From: Holophagaceae bacterium
GTDB taxonomy: Bacteria > Acidobacteriota > Holophagae > Holophagales > Holophagaceae
Direction: 5' to 3'
NCBI GenBank assembly: GCA_023257195.1
Contig: JALRCU010000032.1
Coordinates: 1 to 64,000 of the forward strand
DNA length: 64,000 bases
Each line of letters begins with the position of its first letter. Positions within the stretch are counted from its first letter, which is position 1. The translations under genes and the position numbers were made by a program. The notes beneath the pieces are model-generated. The model had not been told where the DNA came from, did not search any database, and saw only the letters and a program-made list of their open reading frames with translations. This document shows positions 1 to 5,840 of this stretch, in pieces.

Positions 1-1813
1 GTTTTACTTCTATTGAATGGATTTCCTTAATAGGGACTCTTTGACGAATCAGCCTTAAAAGATCAGATTCACTATATTCCTGTTTCCAATGAGAATCTGG
101 ATGAAATCTATCTAGCGAAATTCCATCAGGATCTTTGCGATGAATCGCAAAAGCAACCCGATCTTGCTCCCCGGAAATCCAGCGTAAACGATCGCCCGCG
201 GGTATTGAGAGATTCGAGACTAGTTGATAATAGCCCCCCGGAATTTCTATTGCCAAAATAGTTTCATGATTGACATTAATTTTTTTAGGCTCCTCCCTTT
301 TTTTTTGGACTTCATTCGTTCTGAGCAAGGTTCCCTCTTGAAATGAAAATGGAGCGAGTTCATTCCAGAATAAGTACATCCAATTTAAATAAGTTTTCCA
401 GTCGGGCACATTGGGTGTTGTGATGTCCAAGTAAGACGCAAGATTTCGTCTCAAAAGGAAATAAGCAAGTTCCATATCTTTTCTGTCTATGGAGTTGCCA
501 AAGATATAAACTGCATCCTCTATTCGATCCTGCCCTGCCAATACACGATCAAAACCAAGAGCGCGAGCGACGCTTAGAACATTTAACGGGTTGTTTGGGA
601 CCACAAGGGAATTAATTTCTAGCTTAGATTGCAATTTCATTAAGAGTGATTGAGCATCGCTCAAAGAGACCTTAGACCTGAGCTTGTCCTCTAGCAGAAA
701 TTCTGGAGTAATTAAACCACCAATGAGTAGCTTCAATTGTGATTCAGTTATGGGTGAAGTAAGTATTTGTGGGTATTGACTCGAGGATTGATATATAAGA
801 TTGGGGATTTGAGAAAAATAAGTGCTCACACCCTTAAGATAAGGGGCATCACCTCCAAATACTTCTCCCACATCAATAGTTGCTCCTCCTGCATTAGCCA
901 TGAAAAGAGCTTGAATGGGTTTACCCTGGTACGAAGCAATAATACCCCGTGTTTCATGAATTGCTTGATCGGTCATCGGTTCCTCGGCATCGTACCCACC
1001 ATAAACCTGATCCGCAACAGTATCATTTAAATCAAAACCTTCTTTCACTCGCTTATTTAAATTTGCTATTGCGTAGGTTCTTGCTGCGATACTTTGGGCT
1101 TTTAATGCTTCGATGTTTGGAAATTCAGCTGGACCCATCTCTCTTGGTACGACACCACGTAGGTAAGTTTCCATATCAAGAATATTAATGACTGATAGGC
1201 GTCCAGAGTTATGGGGCACAACATGAATTTGCCCTCTATATTTACCCTTATTCAAGACCCGGGTTGTTAGCCCCAAAGGTTTAAGGCTTACCCCTATTGA
1301 AGGCAAAGGGACGCGTTCATATTGTTCAGTGATGAGATAAAGACCCCGAGATGGCTTAGGGAGATCTAAATTGCGCTCAGAACTGATCCATAATTCCTCA
1401 TAGCCTAAAGTTTTTAATTTATCAAAATCCACTACAGCTAGATCGGAAGTCAGGAAGCGACCTGTAAGGACTCTAAAAAATGCGCTATCGACGACACTCA
1501 CTTTTTCGGCTGAAAAACCTTGAGTTTTCAATTGATTAATTAATTGATCTGCATCGCTAGAACTTAAAGGACCTTTAACTTGAATGCGATACTCGTCAAA
1601 GAATTTACTCTGCGATGCACTATCTAACCAAATTCTAAAACGCTCACCATCAGAAAATGATCGCAGAGGAACTCCTTCCAGAGATTCGATAACACCGCCT
1701 TCCTCAAAAGAAAATAAGTATTCATTTTGGGTCGTTTCTATTCCAACTCGTATAATAGGAGTTTGAGCAACCACTAAGGTGGAGAGAATAACCAACGTGA
1801 AATATCGGAGCAT
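1..1813 (-). CDS. SpoIID/LytB-domain secreted protein with SPOR-like region (3' end cut by window edge)
   Basis: Reading the minus strand from ATG at 1813 gives an open frame of about 604 codons that runs off the left edge, so the C-terminus is missing. The N-terminus is a short signal peptide ending VVAQ (Q at residue 17). Residues about 73-147 look like one or two SPOR-type repeats (YRIQVKGPL, then FFRVLTGRF), a fold that binds denuded peptidoglycan. Residues about 196-330 match the SpoIID/LytB family, including the ETYLRGVVPREMG segment with the conserved Glu and the later ANAGGAT stretch. SpoIID is a lytic transglycosylase and LytB an amidase enhancer, so a peptidoglycan remodelling role in the periplasm is likely. 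About 270 residues follow the domain without a family I recognise. An in-frame ATG at 1819 is an alternative start. The gene lies 11 bp after the upstream serine-hydrolase stop, so it is probably cotranscribed. Confidence 0.82.
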   Translation of the reverse strand, partial: MLRYFTLVILSTLVVAQTPIIRVGIETTQNEYLFSFEEGGVIESLEGVPLRSFSDGERFRIWLDSASQSKFFDEYRIQVKGPLSSSDADQLINQLKTQGFSAEKVSVVDSAFFRVLTGRFLTSDLAVVDFDKLKTLGYEELWISSERNLDLPKPSRGLYLITEQYERVPLPSIGVSLKPLGLTTRVLNKGKYRGQIHVVPHNSGRLSVINILDMETYLRGVVPREMGPAEFPNIEALKAQSIAARTYAIANLNKRVKEGFDLNDTVADQVYGGYDAEEPMTDQAIHETRGIIASYQGKPIQALFMANAGGATIDVGEVFGGDAPYLKGVSTYFSQIPNLIYQSSSQYPQILTSPITESQLKLLIGGLITPEFLLEDKLRSKVSLSDAQSLLMKLQSKLEINSLVVPNNPLNVLSVARALGFDRVLAGQDRIEDAVYIFGNSIDRKDMELAYFLLRRNLASYLDITTPNVPDWKTYLNWMYLFWNELAPFSFQEGTLLRTNEVQKKREEPKKINVNHETILAIEIPGGYYQLVSNLSIPAGDRLRWISGEQDRVAFAIHRKDPDGISLDRFHPDSHWKQEYSESDLLRLIRQRVPIKEIHSIEVK

Positions 1814-1824
1814 ACACATATAGA

Positions 1825-2781
1825 CTAAAGAGATTCAACCGCTCTACCAAGCAACTCTATGCGTCGAGCATGAATTTGGGGCTGGGTCAGCAATTCCCCT
1901 TGAGGACCCTTACGATGAGTAAGCAATCCAATACATGCCTGATCTTCGGGTCGATAAAAGATTGCTGGGCCGGTAAATGCAAGGTGGCCCCACCAGGCAC
2001 AATCCCCAGTATGGGATTGGTCAACATCAATTGAGAGGTGGTCACTAGATCCCTCAATCACGAGGGGTTCGCTGAGAGCCCCTAGGGGGATACGACTGAG
2101 CAGGTCACCAAGGGATCCTGTTCCTGTACGTAGTTTTTGAAGCCCTAATCCCCATAAACTCCCATTTTCACCATGAATAGGCTCTCGGGACATCCGTTGA
2201 GGAAACTTTTCTTCAATCCAATAGTTGATAGATTTCTTGAATTCATCAGGATTAGCGGCAAAACCTGCATGGCCTCGCATGCCCGCACGTGCGTTGATAT
2301 CGTGCGGCAACGAGGTGTTGTAAGGTGGAATCGATACGCGAGGATCAATACATTGCCACGCTTCATGATCTGGACCCGGAGGAATTTCTATACACCCTGG
2401 TGTCCACGGGAAAGGCTTCAATATTGAATGTTTTTGGGCCAAGGATAAGTAATCTTCGTCAGCAAATAAAGCGACCAGTTCACCGAGTAAGCGGTAATTT
2501 AGATCGCTATAGCAAGCAAGTTTTTCAGGTGCCTTACGAAGTAGAGGATGCATTCCCCATGGAATATCAGATTCAAGGAGAGTTCTCAGCGGAGTTTCAT
2601 TGAAGGGTAACCAAGGTGGAAGGCCTGAGGAATGGGACAGAAGCGCACGAGGCGTAAGACGGTATGTCGAATCGTTAAATCCCAAAACAGAGGTGTAGTC
2701 TTCATCCAAATTGAGAGAGGATAAGGCTAATGGCGCAGTAATGAGCGGCTTAGTTAAAGACGCTAAATCATAATTTTTCAC
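1825..2781 (-). CDS. Serine hydrolase, beta-lactamase/PBP4-type fold, N-terminally short
   Basis: This 318-residue protein resembles the class C beta-lactamase/esterase family (PF00144). The nucleophile motif SLTK is at residues 8-11, a YSD triad sits in the position of the usual YxN, and a GHLAFTG segment matches the C-terminal KTG-like strand. The start is GTG at 2781, directly after the TAA of the oxidoreductase gene and in the same frame, so no upstream extension is possible. Family members normally carry about 40-70 residues, including the first beta strands, before SxxK, and these are absent here. No signal peptide is visible, which is unusual for a penicillin-recognising enzyme and points to a cytoplasmic esterase or amidase-like role, or to a decayed protein. 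The substrate cannot be told. The rest of the fold looks intact. Confidence 0.7.
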   Translation of the reverse strand: MKNYDLASLTKPLITAPLALSSLNLDEDYTSVLGFNDSTYRLTPRALLSHSSGLPPWLPFNETPLRTLLESDIPWGMHPLLRKAPEKLACYSDLNYRLLGELVALFADEDYLSLAQKHSILKPFPWTPGCIEIPPGPDHEAWQCIDPRVSIPPYNTSLPHDINARAGMRGHAGFAANPDEFKKSINYWIEEKFPQRMSREPIHGENGSLWGLGLQKLRTGTGSLGDLLSRIPLGALSEPLVIEGSSDHLSIDVDQSHTGDCAWWGHLAFTGPAIFYRPEDQACIGLLTHRKGPQGELLTQPQIHARRIELLGRAVESL

Positions 2782-3744
2782 TTACCCCTCGATCTCCGAC
2801 AGACTCTTCTTAACAGCTTTTTGTACAAGATCGGCCACTTTAAGGGCTTCATGGCCTTCAGTCCAGGATACATATTCTCCGCCTAAACCCAAACAGGCCT
2901 GGTAGAACTGTTCTATTTCTATTTTTAACGGCTCTCCTTCTTTAATAGAAATATTTTCATTTTTTATTTGAAATCCGTTAGTTCCCTCGATTAGGGTATG
3001 GAGCTCCATTGTTTGATCTGCAAAGTTTAACTTGGCGTAGCTCTGATGGCCAAATACTCGCAACGTTCTTTCCTTTTTTTGAGCAACGCGGCTTGCCGTT
3101 AAAATAGCAACCGTTCCACCTTCGAATTTGATGCGGGCATTAACAAGATCAGCTTGTTTAGTTAAAACAGGCACACCGAAGGCTTCAACATCCCTAATGG
3201 GCCTTCCCACTAAGGCTTGAATTAAATCTAAATCATGAATCATGACATCTAATACAACATCAACCTCAGTTGAACGCATGGGGAACGGAGACACTCTTAC
3301 AGTCTCCAAAAACCGTGGGGTGAATTTTCTATCTCTCAGAGCTCCAACAGCAGGATTAAATCGCTCCAAATGTCCTACGGCTCTCACCAATGACGGGGAT
3401 AAGGTGAGAGACTGTTCGTGAGCCGCAAGAAGGAGCTGCGATTCTTCTAAATTGGAAGCTAGGGGTTTCTCCATCAAGATATGCTTGCCCATCTTGATGG
3501 CCTCAATTCCTAGTCTGTGATGATGAATCGTCGGTGCAGCTATCTGTAAAACATTGACCTGATTAGCAATCAGAGACCAATCAGGAACCCATTGAGTATT
3601 GTACTTAGCTGCAATGAGGGACCCATTTTTTTCATCGGGATCTACTACTGCAATCAAATCTGCTTGAGGCGATTCAAAGGCAATTCGGGCATGGTGTTGC
3701 CCCAAATGGCCTACCCCTACAATAGCAACTTTGAGTTGGGTCAT
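2782..3744 (-). CDS. Gfo/Idh/MocA family NAD(P)-dependent oxidoreductase
   Basis: The 320-residue protein starts with a Rossmann fold (VAIVGVGHLGQHHA, GxGxxG near residues 10-15), has the hallmark EKPLASN motif near residue 95, and a HDLDLIQALVG helix carrying the usual His/Asp of the C-terminal alpha/beta domain. Members oxidise or reduce hydroxyl groups on sugars, sugar nucleotides or related compounds, and the substrate cannot be read from the sequence. In several diderm phyla such genes sit in lipid A or surface-sugar clusters, but no lpx gene is next to it here. The ATG at 3744 has only a weak ribosome site. Its TAA is followed at once by the GTG of the serine hydrolase in the same frame, so translation is probably coupled by re-initiation. 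Confidence 0.85.
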   Translation of the reverse strand: MTQLKVAIVGVGHLGQHHARIAFESPQADLIAVVDPDEKNGSLIAAKYNTQWVPDWSLIANQVNVLQIAAPTIHHHRLGIEAIKMGKHILMEKPLASNLEESQLLLAAHEQSLTLSPSLVRAVGHLERFNPAVGALRDRKFTPRFLETVRVSPFPMRSTEVDVVLDVMIHDLDLIQALVGRPIRDVEAFGVPVLTKQADLVNARIKFEGGTVAILTASRVAQKKERTLRVFGHQSYAKLNFADQTMELHTLIEGTNGFQIKNENISIKEGEPLKIEIEQFYQACLGLGGEYVSWTEGHEALKVADLVQKAVKKSLSEIEG

Positions 3745-3786
3745 ATCTTTAGGCTAAACTGATTCTTGGCGAACAGGGGGTCTAGT

Positions 3787-4239
3787 ATGGATTTACAAGC
3801 AATCACTCTGCTTTCAGTTGCGAAATGGGTGCATTTAGTTTTATTTGGTACAGCTCTGGGTGGCGGAGCGGCCTGTCTCATCATTTCTGGCCTTGAGGAA
3901 AGTGATTCTGCCTATAAAGGTCTTTCGGCAGCTCTTTGGAAATCCCTAGTCAACTGGTCACTTCGCCTTACATTCATTGTTGGGATGCTACTTCTTATTT
4001 TGAATATGCAAATGGGTCAGAGTCCCTTCTTAAATAAATATTTTCACTATAAACTTCTTTTCGTGTTTGTTCTTTTAGGTCTCTCAGAATCTGCAAGTAA
4101 GAGTTTAGCAACCGGGAAACGAACACTAGCTTTATCATGTGTCATTGTGATTGCATTGATTGGTTTTATCATTGAAAATCAACAAATCTTCGGTCAAACC
4201 ATACCTAGGGAAGTAACGGCTGTCCAATCAGAGCAATGA
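3787..4239 (+). CDS. Small four-helix membrane protein, HemJ/CopD-like (uncertain)
   Basis: From ATG 3787 the product is 150 residues. An upstream in-frame TTG at 3766 is less likely because AGGGGG lies just 6 nt before the ATG. There are four predicted membrane helices: about 7-30, 55-72, 83-100 and 110-128. Helix 1 carries KWVHLVLFGTALGGG and helix 3 begins FHYKLLFVFVLLG. A His in helix 1 plus an H-x-K pair opening helix 3 recalls HemJ (protoporphyrinogen oxidase) and CopD-like membrane proteins, but the resemblance is partial and I do not assign a function. The last codons overlap the M14 peptidase start (ATGA), so the two genes are translationally coupled. Confidence 0.6.
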   Translation: MDLQAITLLSVAKWVHLVLFGTALGGGAACLIISGLEESDSAYKGLSAALWKSLVNWSLRLTFIVGMLLLILNMQMGQSPFLNKYFHYKLLFVFVLLGLSESASKSLATGKRTLALSCVIVIALIGFIIENQQIFGQTIPREVTAVQSEQ

Positions 4240-5840
4240 TTCGTAGTGTACTTTTCTTGGGGCTCAGTCTGGGCCTCTATGGCCAAGGGCTGTTAACAAT
4301 ACCTGAGCAGAGTCAATATCGAAGGACCTCAACGGTCCATGAAGTCAAAGTCTTCATGGATTTACTTCAACAGACGTTCCCTGACTTACAGCCATATCAA
4401 CCCCGGGAAGCTCCTGCTCGAACCGAGATGGGGCAACCTTTAAGGGCTTGGCGAATCAAGGCGACTCGAAGGGATTCGGTACGCGTTTACATCAATGCCA
4501 ACATTCATGCCGGAGAGGTTGAGGGCAAGGAGGCCGTGCAGATGCTCGTTAGAGAATGGCTTCAGGGTAAACATCCCCAACTTCGAGAGTCCATTGATCT
4601 CGTGATCATGCCTTGTTATAACGCCGAGGGTACTGACTTACTAGATCCTAGAAATCGAGTTCATCAACCCAATCCAGAAAGTGGTGTAGGCATCAGAGAA
4701 AATGCACAGGGGCTCGATCTAAACCGCGATCTCATGAAAGTAGAAACTACGAATACGCGCTGGATATTATCGATGTTTCAGGCTTTTAATCCTCACGTTG
4801 TAATGGATTTGCACACTACAAATGGTAGTTACCATGGATTTTATCTCACCTACGCTCCAGCTTTAGCTCCAGGATTTGAACCGCTCATGACTTTGAATAG
4901 AGAGATCCTCCTCGATGTTCGTAAGGAGCTTTACCGTAAAAACTTTCCAGTTTTTGATTATGGAAATTTCAGTTATGAAAGTCGTGATATGTCAAAACTA
5001 ACGGAAGCTAATGATCCTCCGTTCATTTCGAGTCCAAAGTCATGGGAAACTTTCGATTGGCGTCCACGGTTCTTAACAAATTACCCTTCGTTGCGGGGTC
5101 GTTTATCCATTTTAAGTGAAGCGTATGTTTACAGGACTTTTCAAGAGCGCGTTCTTGAAACAAAAAGCTTTGTTCTTGAATGTCTCAAGGTGATACGTCA
5201 AAGAGCCTCTTTCATAAGAACTATTACTGCACAGGCTGAAAAAGAACATCCCACTTTATTGCCCTTGAGTGCAACTCCTAAACTCACGGAACGTTTTGTT
5301 TTTGACGTGATTGAGCCCATCAGAGACTCGCAGGGAAAACTGATTGGGGAAAAAAATAGAAGGCAGGTTGAACTTCCTGCTCTGACCTCGTATCAATACT
5401 CGGATTGGGTCCCCCTGCCCTCAGGCTATCTTATTTATGGGGATCACTTGGAAGATATTAAGAAGCGATTGTCCGCGCATTCGATACCCTACAAAAAAGC
5501 GGTAAGGGAACACTACTCTGCTCTCCACTTCTCTTTTATCGAGAAGGAGCGTAAAGAGAGTCCCCGTCCCTTTCAGGGAATTAAGACCCTAAGCCTCGTG
5601 GGCGAGTGGGTTCTTCAAGACAAGTCATTATGGCCAAAAGACAAACTTCGCAATGCCATTTATGTTCCTCTCATTCAGGGAAAAGCTCGTCTTGCTTTTT
5701 ATTTGTTAGATCCTCGGAGTCCCGATGGTTTTGTCTACTGGAGGCTCATGGAATCAAAAGATATTCTTGCCATTGCACCTAAAAATGGGCAACCTTTAAC
5801 CGGTCCTTCTTCTCAAAGTAATTTTGAGGGCCAAGAATAA
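4236..5840 (+). CDS. Secreted M14-family zinc carboxypeptidase
   Basis: The 534-residue protein has a short signal peptide ending LYGQ (residues 14-17). The zinc site is readable: HAGE at 91-94 supplies His and Glu, and DLHTTNGS gives the third ligand at His193. GLDLNRD (160-166) matches the substrate-carboxylate Asn-Arg region, and SEAYVYR near 295 holds the catalytic Glu. These are the standard M14 carboxypeptidase A landmarks. The family trims C-terminal amino acids or hydrolyses cell-wall and protein amides. The C-terminal third after residue 370 is an extra domain of unknown type. It overlaps the preceding membrane-protein gene by 4 bp. With the M16, M28 and M13 genes nearby it forms part of a set of exported metallopeptidases. 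Confidence 0.9.
   Translation: MIRSVLFLGLSLGLYGQGLLTIPEQSQYRRTSTVHEVKVFMDLLQQTFPDLQPYQPREAPARTEMGQPLRAWRIKATRRDSVRVYINANIHAGEVEGKEAVQMLVREWLQGKHPQLRESIDLVIMPCYNAEGTDLLDPRNRVHQPNPESGVGIRENAQGLDLNRDLMKVETTNTRWILSMFQAFNPHVVMDLHTTNGSYHGFYLTYAPALAPGFEPLMTLNREILLDVRKELYRKNFPVFDYGNFSYESRDMSKLTEANDPPFISSPKSWETFDWRPRFLTNYPSLRGRLSILSEAYVYRTFQERVLETKSFVLECLKVIRQRASFIRTITAQAEKEHPTLLPLSATPKLTERFVFDVIEPIRDSQGKLIGEKNRRQVELPALTSYQYSDWVPLPSGYLIYGDHLEDIKKRLSAHSIPYKKAVREHYSALHFSFIEKERKESPRPFQGIKTLSLVGEWVLQDKSLWPKDKLRNAIYVPLIQGKARLAFYLLDPRSPDGFVYWRLMESKDILAIAPKNGQPLTGPSSQSNFEGQE

Follow-up and report, generated by a model that had tools for sequence, protein, structure and literature searches.

The 64,000-bp stretch of a Holophagaceae genome analysed here (contig JALRCU010000032.1 of assembly GCA_023257195.1, positions 1–64,000, called the window below) encodes a serine hydrolase of the PF00144 family, which has the beta-lactamase fold, with only seven residues ahead of its nucleophilic serine. 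We conclude, with a probability of about 0.7, that the gene is intact and represents a real, lineage-wide variant of this family, the front of which was lost in an ancestor of Holophagaceae. An earlier reading made from the sequence alone had placed the SLTK motif at residues 8–11 and the GTG start of the hydrolase directly behind the TAA of a normal-length Gfo/Idh oxidoreductase gene in one shared frame, and had left a minimal enzyme, a decayed gene and a fusion split by one stop codon as options. Both placements were confirmed in the translated sequence and in the DNA, and the Gfo/Idh protein was found to be full length by Pfam and by its match to the PDB entry 7bvj over residues 2–318. The hydrolase matched PF00144 with 38.8 bits against a gathering cut-off of 27, and the match covered profile positions 50–316 of 329 only, from hydrolase residue 4 onward. 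It was the sole PF00144 match at E ≤ 0.1 in its genome (G000; 1.2 Mb, 56 contigs, 97% complete), which shares one Holophagaceae genus with two small genomes of 0.9 and 1.2 Mb. The G+C content of the window is 44%.

The short N-terminus is shared across Holophagaceae

A strong orthologue, taken as a match at E ≤ 1e-50 in a search of the genomes of the class, was found in 74 of the 77 Holophagaceae genomes, covering 11 genera, and the three genomes without one (G028, G029, and G076) are 72–81% complete. When 297 genomes from the whole phylum were searched, the best match per genome scored at least 437 bits in 27 Holophagaceae and at most 79 bits in the others among the matches listed. The start codons ATG, GTG, and TTG lying 4–16 or 35–80 codons ahead of the serine were counted in 73 of the 74 orthologues, that of G070 (L162) being excluded as its contig ends inside the gene. 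The same was done for seven hydrolases of a sister family of the same class (f2) and for 50 outsiders from Desulfobacterota and other Deltaproteobacteria, Nitrospirota, other Acidobacteriota, archaea and more; the relatives were the best 80 of 423, and rarer short forms may exist elsewhere. All 73 Holophagaceae orthologues had a start 4–16 codons before the serine, as the sequence-only reading had proposed to check by aligning homologues from related genomes. Such a near start is weak evidence by itself because 19 of the 50 outsiders and three of the seven f2 genes have one inside a longer gene, and the real support for the short form comes from the absence of room, of upstream starts and of N-terminal sequence. 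An in-frame stop was present within 35 codons upstream in 24/73 Holophagaceae orthologues as against 0/50 outsiders and 0/7 f2 genes, and a further 36/73 had the room but no start 35–80 codons upstream. A start in this distant range was found in 13/73 Holophagaceae compared with 49/50 outsiders and 7/7 f2 genes. The outsiders carry a front of the type ..FPGAVLLV..G.I......TIFDLASLTKP, and at least 53 open codons precede SxxK in 50/50 of them. In the outsider L119, the N-terminal sequence is normal, but its head carries no ATG, GTG, or TTG. Among eight outside loci obtained from the phylum search, six had a start 54–61 codons before the serine, L194 had recognisable full-length sequence interrupted by an in-frame stop 33 codons upstream (either a broken copy or an unclear case), and L192 did not fit the motif search.

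The missing sequence comprises the N-terminal helix (H1) and the strands B1 and B2, and 26 of the 50 outsiders served to build a profile of this region. At E ≤ 1, the profile recovered 49/50 outsiders, a success that is partly circular, and 6/7 f2 hydrolases. None of the 56 testable in-frame upstream peptides of Holophagaceae matched at this threshold, and one did at E ≤ 10.

Two other arrangements were considered and rejected. An N-terminus shifted into another upstream frame found no support within the tests made: across 72 loci, the two remaining frames gave 2 matches out of 144 at E ≤ 1 (0.91 and 1.0); the looser E ≤ 10 gave 27, and many of these frames are Gfo/Idh coding sequence. Circular permutation was rejected as the length from the serine to the stop is no longer than usual and the structural model of the protein ends in the usual C-terminal helix. 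This length is 302–315 residues in most Holophagaceae loci, is longer in L022 (334), L033 (348), and the broken L094 (371), and is 292–339 residues in the full-length relatives apart from one fusion and one cut contig. Toward the 3′ end of the L094 orthologue (Geothrix fermentans DSM 14018, G062:C11:70873–71819), the match is broken in two, as a frameshift or a sequencing error in the assembly would cause.

Catalytic motifs are intact and the gene is under purifying selection

Motifs were counted in 34 Holophagaceae, seven f2 and 49 full-length proteins; the contig ends inside the gene in L023, which was dropped from the locus alignment and these counts, and in L125, which was dropped from these counts and from the tree. 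The residues S8, K11, Y91, S92, D93, H266, and G271 (window numbering) were invariant in 34/34 Holophagaceae. The serine and lysine of SxxK were present in 7/7 f2 and 49/49 full-length proteins, and the latter have, in the same register, the tyrosine and aspartate in 49/49, S92 in 47/49, and the histidine and G271 in 49/49. The second motif of f2 is YSC. The third motif of Holophagaceae reads HxG in 22/34 and HxA in 12/34. The order of motifs known for PF00144 (SxxK, YxN/D, and KTG/HxG) is thereby kept in the window protein, with HLA in place of HxG.

The ratio of non-synonymous to synonymous differences (pN/pS) between the window hydrolase and its two congeners was 0.20–0.24, and that of the adjoining Gfo/Idh gene was 0.13–0.14; because saturation affects the synonymous sites of two of the three hydrolase pairs, only the direction of these values is meaningful. 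No hydrophobic leader of the kind that exports class C beta-lactamases was seen when the N-terminus was judged by eye, and therefore the hydrolase should be cytosolic. With its motifs intact, the protein should still act as an acyl-serine hydrolase using Lys11 as the base. As far as sequence goes, the family-wide conservation, intact motifs and purifying selection support the minimal enzyme among the three options of the sequence-only reading.

The modelled fold lacks the first helix and two strands

The AlphaFold2 model of the window protein, made with 34 sequences, had a mean predicted local distance difference test score (pLDDT) of 95.4 and a predicted template modelling score (pTM) of 0.93. 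Its strands span residues 215–219, 240–243, 259–267, 273–277, and 282–287, and are followed by a C-terminal helix at 300–317; nothing in this list replaces B1–B2. In the VIA-align comparison of the Foldseek PDB matches, the best class C-type match had a Z score of 19.6 (6kjp; root-mean-square deviation 2.9, 243 residues aligned). Residues 1–318 of the model pair with AmpC-type chains from residue 57–58 to the end (50–94 over 50 rows, entry numbering), and the class C chain before residue ∼57 has no counterpart. Thus, the N-terminal helix and strands B1–B2 expected of a PF00144 fold were not found in the modelled protein. The f2 model, made with seven sequences, had a pLDDT of 77.4 and a pTM of 0.79, contained extra strands at 18–24 and 27–34, and paired with AmpC residues 7–361 at Z ∼22.

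Holophagaceae differ from the full-length relatives by fixed residues (at least 85% in both groups) at P159, A166, F174, P272, A273, F275, R277, and H289, and the last five are in or beside strands B4–B5. A further 19 positions are conserved (95%) in Holophagaceae only and are spread over residues 16–311; W264, R306, R307, and L311 among them fall in the last 60 residues. The cluster at 272–289, a region that would contact the lost cover in this fold, would fit a compensation for that loss, and a retuning of the active site is an equal reading of it.

Full-length versions behind Gfo/Idh suggest a loss within Holophagaceae

The hydrolase was found directly behind a Gfo/Idh gene in 7/7 f2 loci (L051–L053, L055, L056, L058, and L059), where 43–46 residues precede SxxK and the proteins are 23–26% identical to the window protein. 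A full-length hydrolase also follows Gfo/Idh in four loci of other Acidobacteriota, namely L113 (Pyrinomonadaceae), L126 (gp4), L134, and L143. In these, Gfo/Idh ends 185–337 nucleotides (nt) ahead of the serine codon and is 34.9–38.9% identical to that of the window; the hydrolases show 24–27% identity to the window protein over long stretches, and 40% over a short one in L143. Because the full-length version follows Gfo/Idh in f2 and in these four loci, it is probable that the pairing dates far back in Acidobacteriota and that the front was lost specifically in Holophagaceae. The sequence-only reading had named a normal N-terminus at the same locus in close homologues as grounds for giving it up: such fronts exist in the distant relatives (f2 and the four loci) and in no close relative. 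The full-length versions in distant relatives date the truncation and do not make it an error.

In f2, 110–119 nt separate the stop of Gfo/Idh from the serine codon, as against 14–33 nt in 19/20 close Holophagaceae pairs (78 nt in L034). The shorter distance is what a deletion at the junction would leave, and it may have been a single event. In the 34 Holophagaceae loci besides the window, Gfo/Idh ended less than 100 nt from the serine codon in 20, 148–1003 nt in eight, and 4733 nt in one; it was not found next to the hydrolase in five, one of which has only 68 nt upstream. The same short N-terminus was seen with or without an adjoining Gfo/Idh gene. The two genes share a frame in 5/20 close pairs, near the third expected by chance, and in both congeners the Gfo/Idh stop is in another frame (by eye, a TGA overlapping the GTG). 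As only these five close relatives are in frame, the shared frame in the window is probably a coincidence, and the conserved frame across the junction that a fusion would imply was not observed.

We propose that the Holophagaceae ancestor lost about 40–60 codons between the Gfo/Idh stop and the SxxK codons, perhaps in one deletion, which would have removed H1, B1, and B2. Translation would now begin at the near start, 4–16 codons before the serine. The remaining chain would keep S8/K11, Y91, and H266 together with strands B3–B5, and the naked B5 edge is probably covered by the changed residues or by the pairing of two subunits.

The f2 hydrolases, for example that at L051:4640–5536 (minus strand), keep the front and lack some 50 residues including the GLGx strand, which Holophagaceae keep; the two related families have trimmed one fold at different places.

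A possible role in muropeptide recycling

The neighbours of the full-length relatives form a muropeptide recycling gene set. In 16/50 loci, the hydrolase adjoins a member of one protein cluster (d1), of which the one checked (L130) is a Peptidase_S66, an LD-carboxypeptidase. In 7/50, a neighbour or fusion belongs to one further cluster, of which two were checked: at L107 the Mur ligase is encoded separately from the hydrolase, and at L128 the two are fused, with a ligase that is probably Mpl. The L128 frame (2836–5361), from a metagenome-assembled genome of Myxococcales, holds a full-length PF00144 hydrolase and a complete Mur ligase, and this fusion is a natural link of the hydrolase family to muropeptide recycling.

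Recycling genes were examined in eight Holophagaceae genomes (G000, G001, G002, G005, G007, G010, G016, and G034). AnmK and a GH3 protein of NagZ size were present in 8/8. Amidase_2, the family of AmpD, was absent from seven, including the window's own genome, and present in one. Peptidase_S66 was found in 1/8, NamZ in 1/8, MurQ over the cut-off in 1/8, and Mpl over the cut-off in 0/8. AnmK requires free anhydro-N-acetylmuramic acid (anhydroMurNAc), so some amidase must act in Holophagaceae. The window hydrolase is a fitting candidate and is the only PF00144 match of its genome; other amidase families were not searched for. The presence of AnmK and a NagZ-like protein with no AmpD is the pathway context in which a MurNAc-L-Ala amidase would be expected. 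We therefore tentatively propose, at somewhat less than even odds, that the hydrolase cleaves the MurNAc-L-Ala amide of recycled muropeptides in the cytosol and replaces AmpD. Recycling enzymes including AnmK are listed in PMC5061867. The more complete picture, in which the alpha1-beta1-beta2 unit, commonly regarded as integral to the beta-lactamase fold, is dispensable and a working SxxK enzyme that begins at the nucleophile helix, and is stabilised by either a rebuilt B3–B5/C-terminal-helix face or a B5-pairing dimer, serves as the cytosolic AmpD replacement, is doubtful when all its parts are taken together.

Amidase_2 was also absent from the f2 genome G039, whose Mur ligase scored 340.7 bits to the Mpl model (cut-off 388.7), and from G053. 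In the large genome G016, a second, full-length hydrolase that shares one 762-residue frame with NamZ is clustered on contig C1 (2.361–2.386 Mb) with two Amidase_2 matches, MurQ, a GH3 and an LD-carboxypeptidase; the other seven Holophagaceae genomes lack most of these. The GH3 gene of NagZ size in the window genome (G000:C30:99782–100612) is its only GH3 gene and is located on the same contig as the window, outside it.

Weighing the lineage-wide variant against other explanations

Several observations weigh against an intact, lineage-wide enzyme with a lost front and the role proposed for it. AlphaFold may model a fragment of a fold confidently, and a high pLDDT is no proof that the chain folds alone. 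The conserved changes specific to Holophagaceae are spread over the protein and not confined to the face with the lost cover, and residue 268 of the window protein is alanine as against glycine in 49/49 full-length relatives. In 13 of the 73 orthologues, a distant in-frame start does exist. A tree was built from the sequence downstream of SxxK, with 17 of the 34 Holophagaceae rows and with L129, a locus of the LD-carboxypeptidase cluster, left in 'other'. In it, the short form makes one group with a support of 100, its stem is very long, at 2.79 changes per column, and it is joined to neither f2 nor the other Gfo/Idh-linked sequences. A branch of this length is hardly expected to place the short clade correctly, and because the tree does not group it with f2, the orthology rests on gene order and similarity; the chemistry of the clade may also have changed. 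Finally, LdcA (7/8), Mpl over the cut-off (8/8), and MurQ over the cut-off (7/8) are missing from Holophagaceae, which therefore retain little of the recycling context seen around the full-length relatives, and the frequent partner Gfo/Idh has no obvious place in recycling.

The partner gene suggests a different substrate for a cytosolic hydrolase, for instance an acylated amino sugar produced by the Gfo/Idh enzyme, which resembles UDP-GlcNAc 3-dehydrogenase (NF040723 at E 2.8e-52, below its cut-off; 7bvj at E 8e-47) and is a common neighbour in Holophagaceae, f2 and the four other Acidobacteriota loci. We regard this as rather unlikely, as L009, L015, L036, and L040 have no Gfo/Idh despite at least 1.5 kb of upstream sequence each, and no chemistry is known for it. 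A catalytically dead or repurposed binding protein, such as a partner of the Gfo/Idh enzyme, would account for the long stem, for the fixed changes beside the third motif (P272, A273, F275, R277, and H289) and for alanine at 268 in 12/34. Dead paralogues usually lose some catalytic residues, and the invariance of all seven motif residues in 34/34 makes this explanation unlikely.

The absence of any replacement for B1–B2 in the model would be explained if another polypeptide supplied these strands in trans. The Gfo/Idh protein, at 320 residues, is not lengthened relative to the 311–327 of f2 (by first start). The H1-B1-B2 profile found no separate N-terminal gene at E ≤ 1 in G000–G002, a weak negative, given that in the f2 genome G039 the known N-terminus escaped the profile as well. 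G010 gave one match at E 0.71 in a 102-residue frame. Matches in other Holophagaceae genomes, such as G005 (E 1.3e-6) and G016 (E 6.3e-7), lie at a distance from the short gene, within open frames of 652 and 762 residues, respectively; that of G016 is a full-length paralogue fused to NamZ, because a second hydrolase match and NamZ share the frame. We consider supply in trans quite improbable. Decay, which the missing front and long stem could suggest, is contradicted by strong matches in nearly all Holophagaceae genomes, the retention of the sole PF00144 gene in a 1.2-Mb genome, the invariant motifs and the low pN/pS, and is very hard to sustain. The same holds for a single fusion protein that the TAA interrupts or that is translated through it, since the in-frame abutment of the window is seen in few close relatives and neither congener, the genes are 148–4733 nt apart in 9/34 loci, and orthologues without an adjoining Gfo/Idh are equally short.

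Relation to known proteins

The intact but shortened enzyme remains our preferred reading, and its likeness to known PF00144 members can be described. Class C beta-lactamases, DD-peptidases, family VIII esterases and D-amino acid amidases of this family share with it the SxxK/YxD(N)/HxG motifs, the helical domain, B3–B5, and the C-terminal helix; unlike them, the window protein is without H1, B1, and B2. Its PDB matches were 4gdn (Flp), 7v21 (LACTB), and 2dns by sequence, and 6kjq, 6kjp, and others by fold. The Gfo/Idh-linked full-length versions have the same operon partner, SxxK and third motif, but hold 43–46 (f2) or about 58 residues before SxxK, and f2 is without the segment including the GLGx strand. 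AmiE of Bacillus subtilis, an N-acetylmuramyl-L-alanine amidase, belongs to PF00144, and AmpD, a functional analogue, is a zinc amidase of another fold. The reaction proposed for the window hydrolase is that of these two enzymes. In PMC5061867, AmiE is placed in a MurNAc recycling cluster and acts outside the cell, whereas the window hydrolase is predicted to be cytosolic and its amidase activity is putative. The f2 protein of L051 matched PBP4B (NCBIfam PRK03642) weakly, at E 2.6e-6 and 26.5 bits against a cut-off of 385; the NCBIfam search of the window protein and L035 gave no match at E ≤ 0.01.

No PF00144 protein without the N-terminal strands was found in the literature, searched as PMC open-access text only. 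The fold itself belongs to a known family, and what appears to be new is a version shared across Holophagaceae that has intact motifs and is without the first helix and two strands. If folded and working, it would reduce the core required by a very widespread serine-hydrolase fold, would be an example of an enzyme that has given up part of its central sheet under continued family-wide selection, and would suggest an amidase that fills the gap in Holophagaceae muropeptide recycling. It is also a warning that automated gene calling may place the start of such genes too far upstream.

Features of the hydrolase locus in the window

Table 1. Positions of the hydrolase gene, its motifs and its neighbours (window coordinates).
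Feature	Position	Strand	Remark
PF00144 (beta-lactamase fold) serine hydrolase, N-terminally truncated	1825..2781	minus	318 residues; start GTG at 2779–2781
SxxK motif, S8-L9-T10-K11	2749..2760	minus	expected nucleophile and general base; from sequence and alignment
Second motif YSD, Y91-S92-D93	2503..2511	minus	from alignment
Third motif, H266-L-A	1978..1986	minus	HxG/HxA, KTG equivalent; from alignment
GAGGGG	2785..2790	minus	possible Shine-Dalgarno site in the 3′ end of the Gfo/Idh gene; read from sequence
TAA stop of the Gfo/Idh gene	2782..2784	minus	immediately 5′ of the hydrolase GTG; in frame probably by chance
Gfo/Idh/MocA oxidoreductase	2782..3744	minus	320 residues; UDP-GlcNAc 3-dehydrogenase-like; frequent upstream partner
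SPOR + SpoIID-domain protein	5..1819	minus	downstream neighbour; cut by the contig start

The cluster of the SPOR/SpoIID neighbour (c2) was called in 11/28 neighbourhoods including that of the window, every one of them from Holophagaceae.

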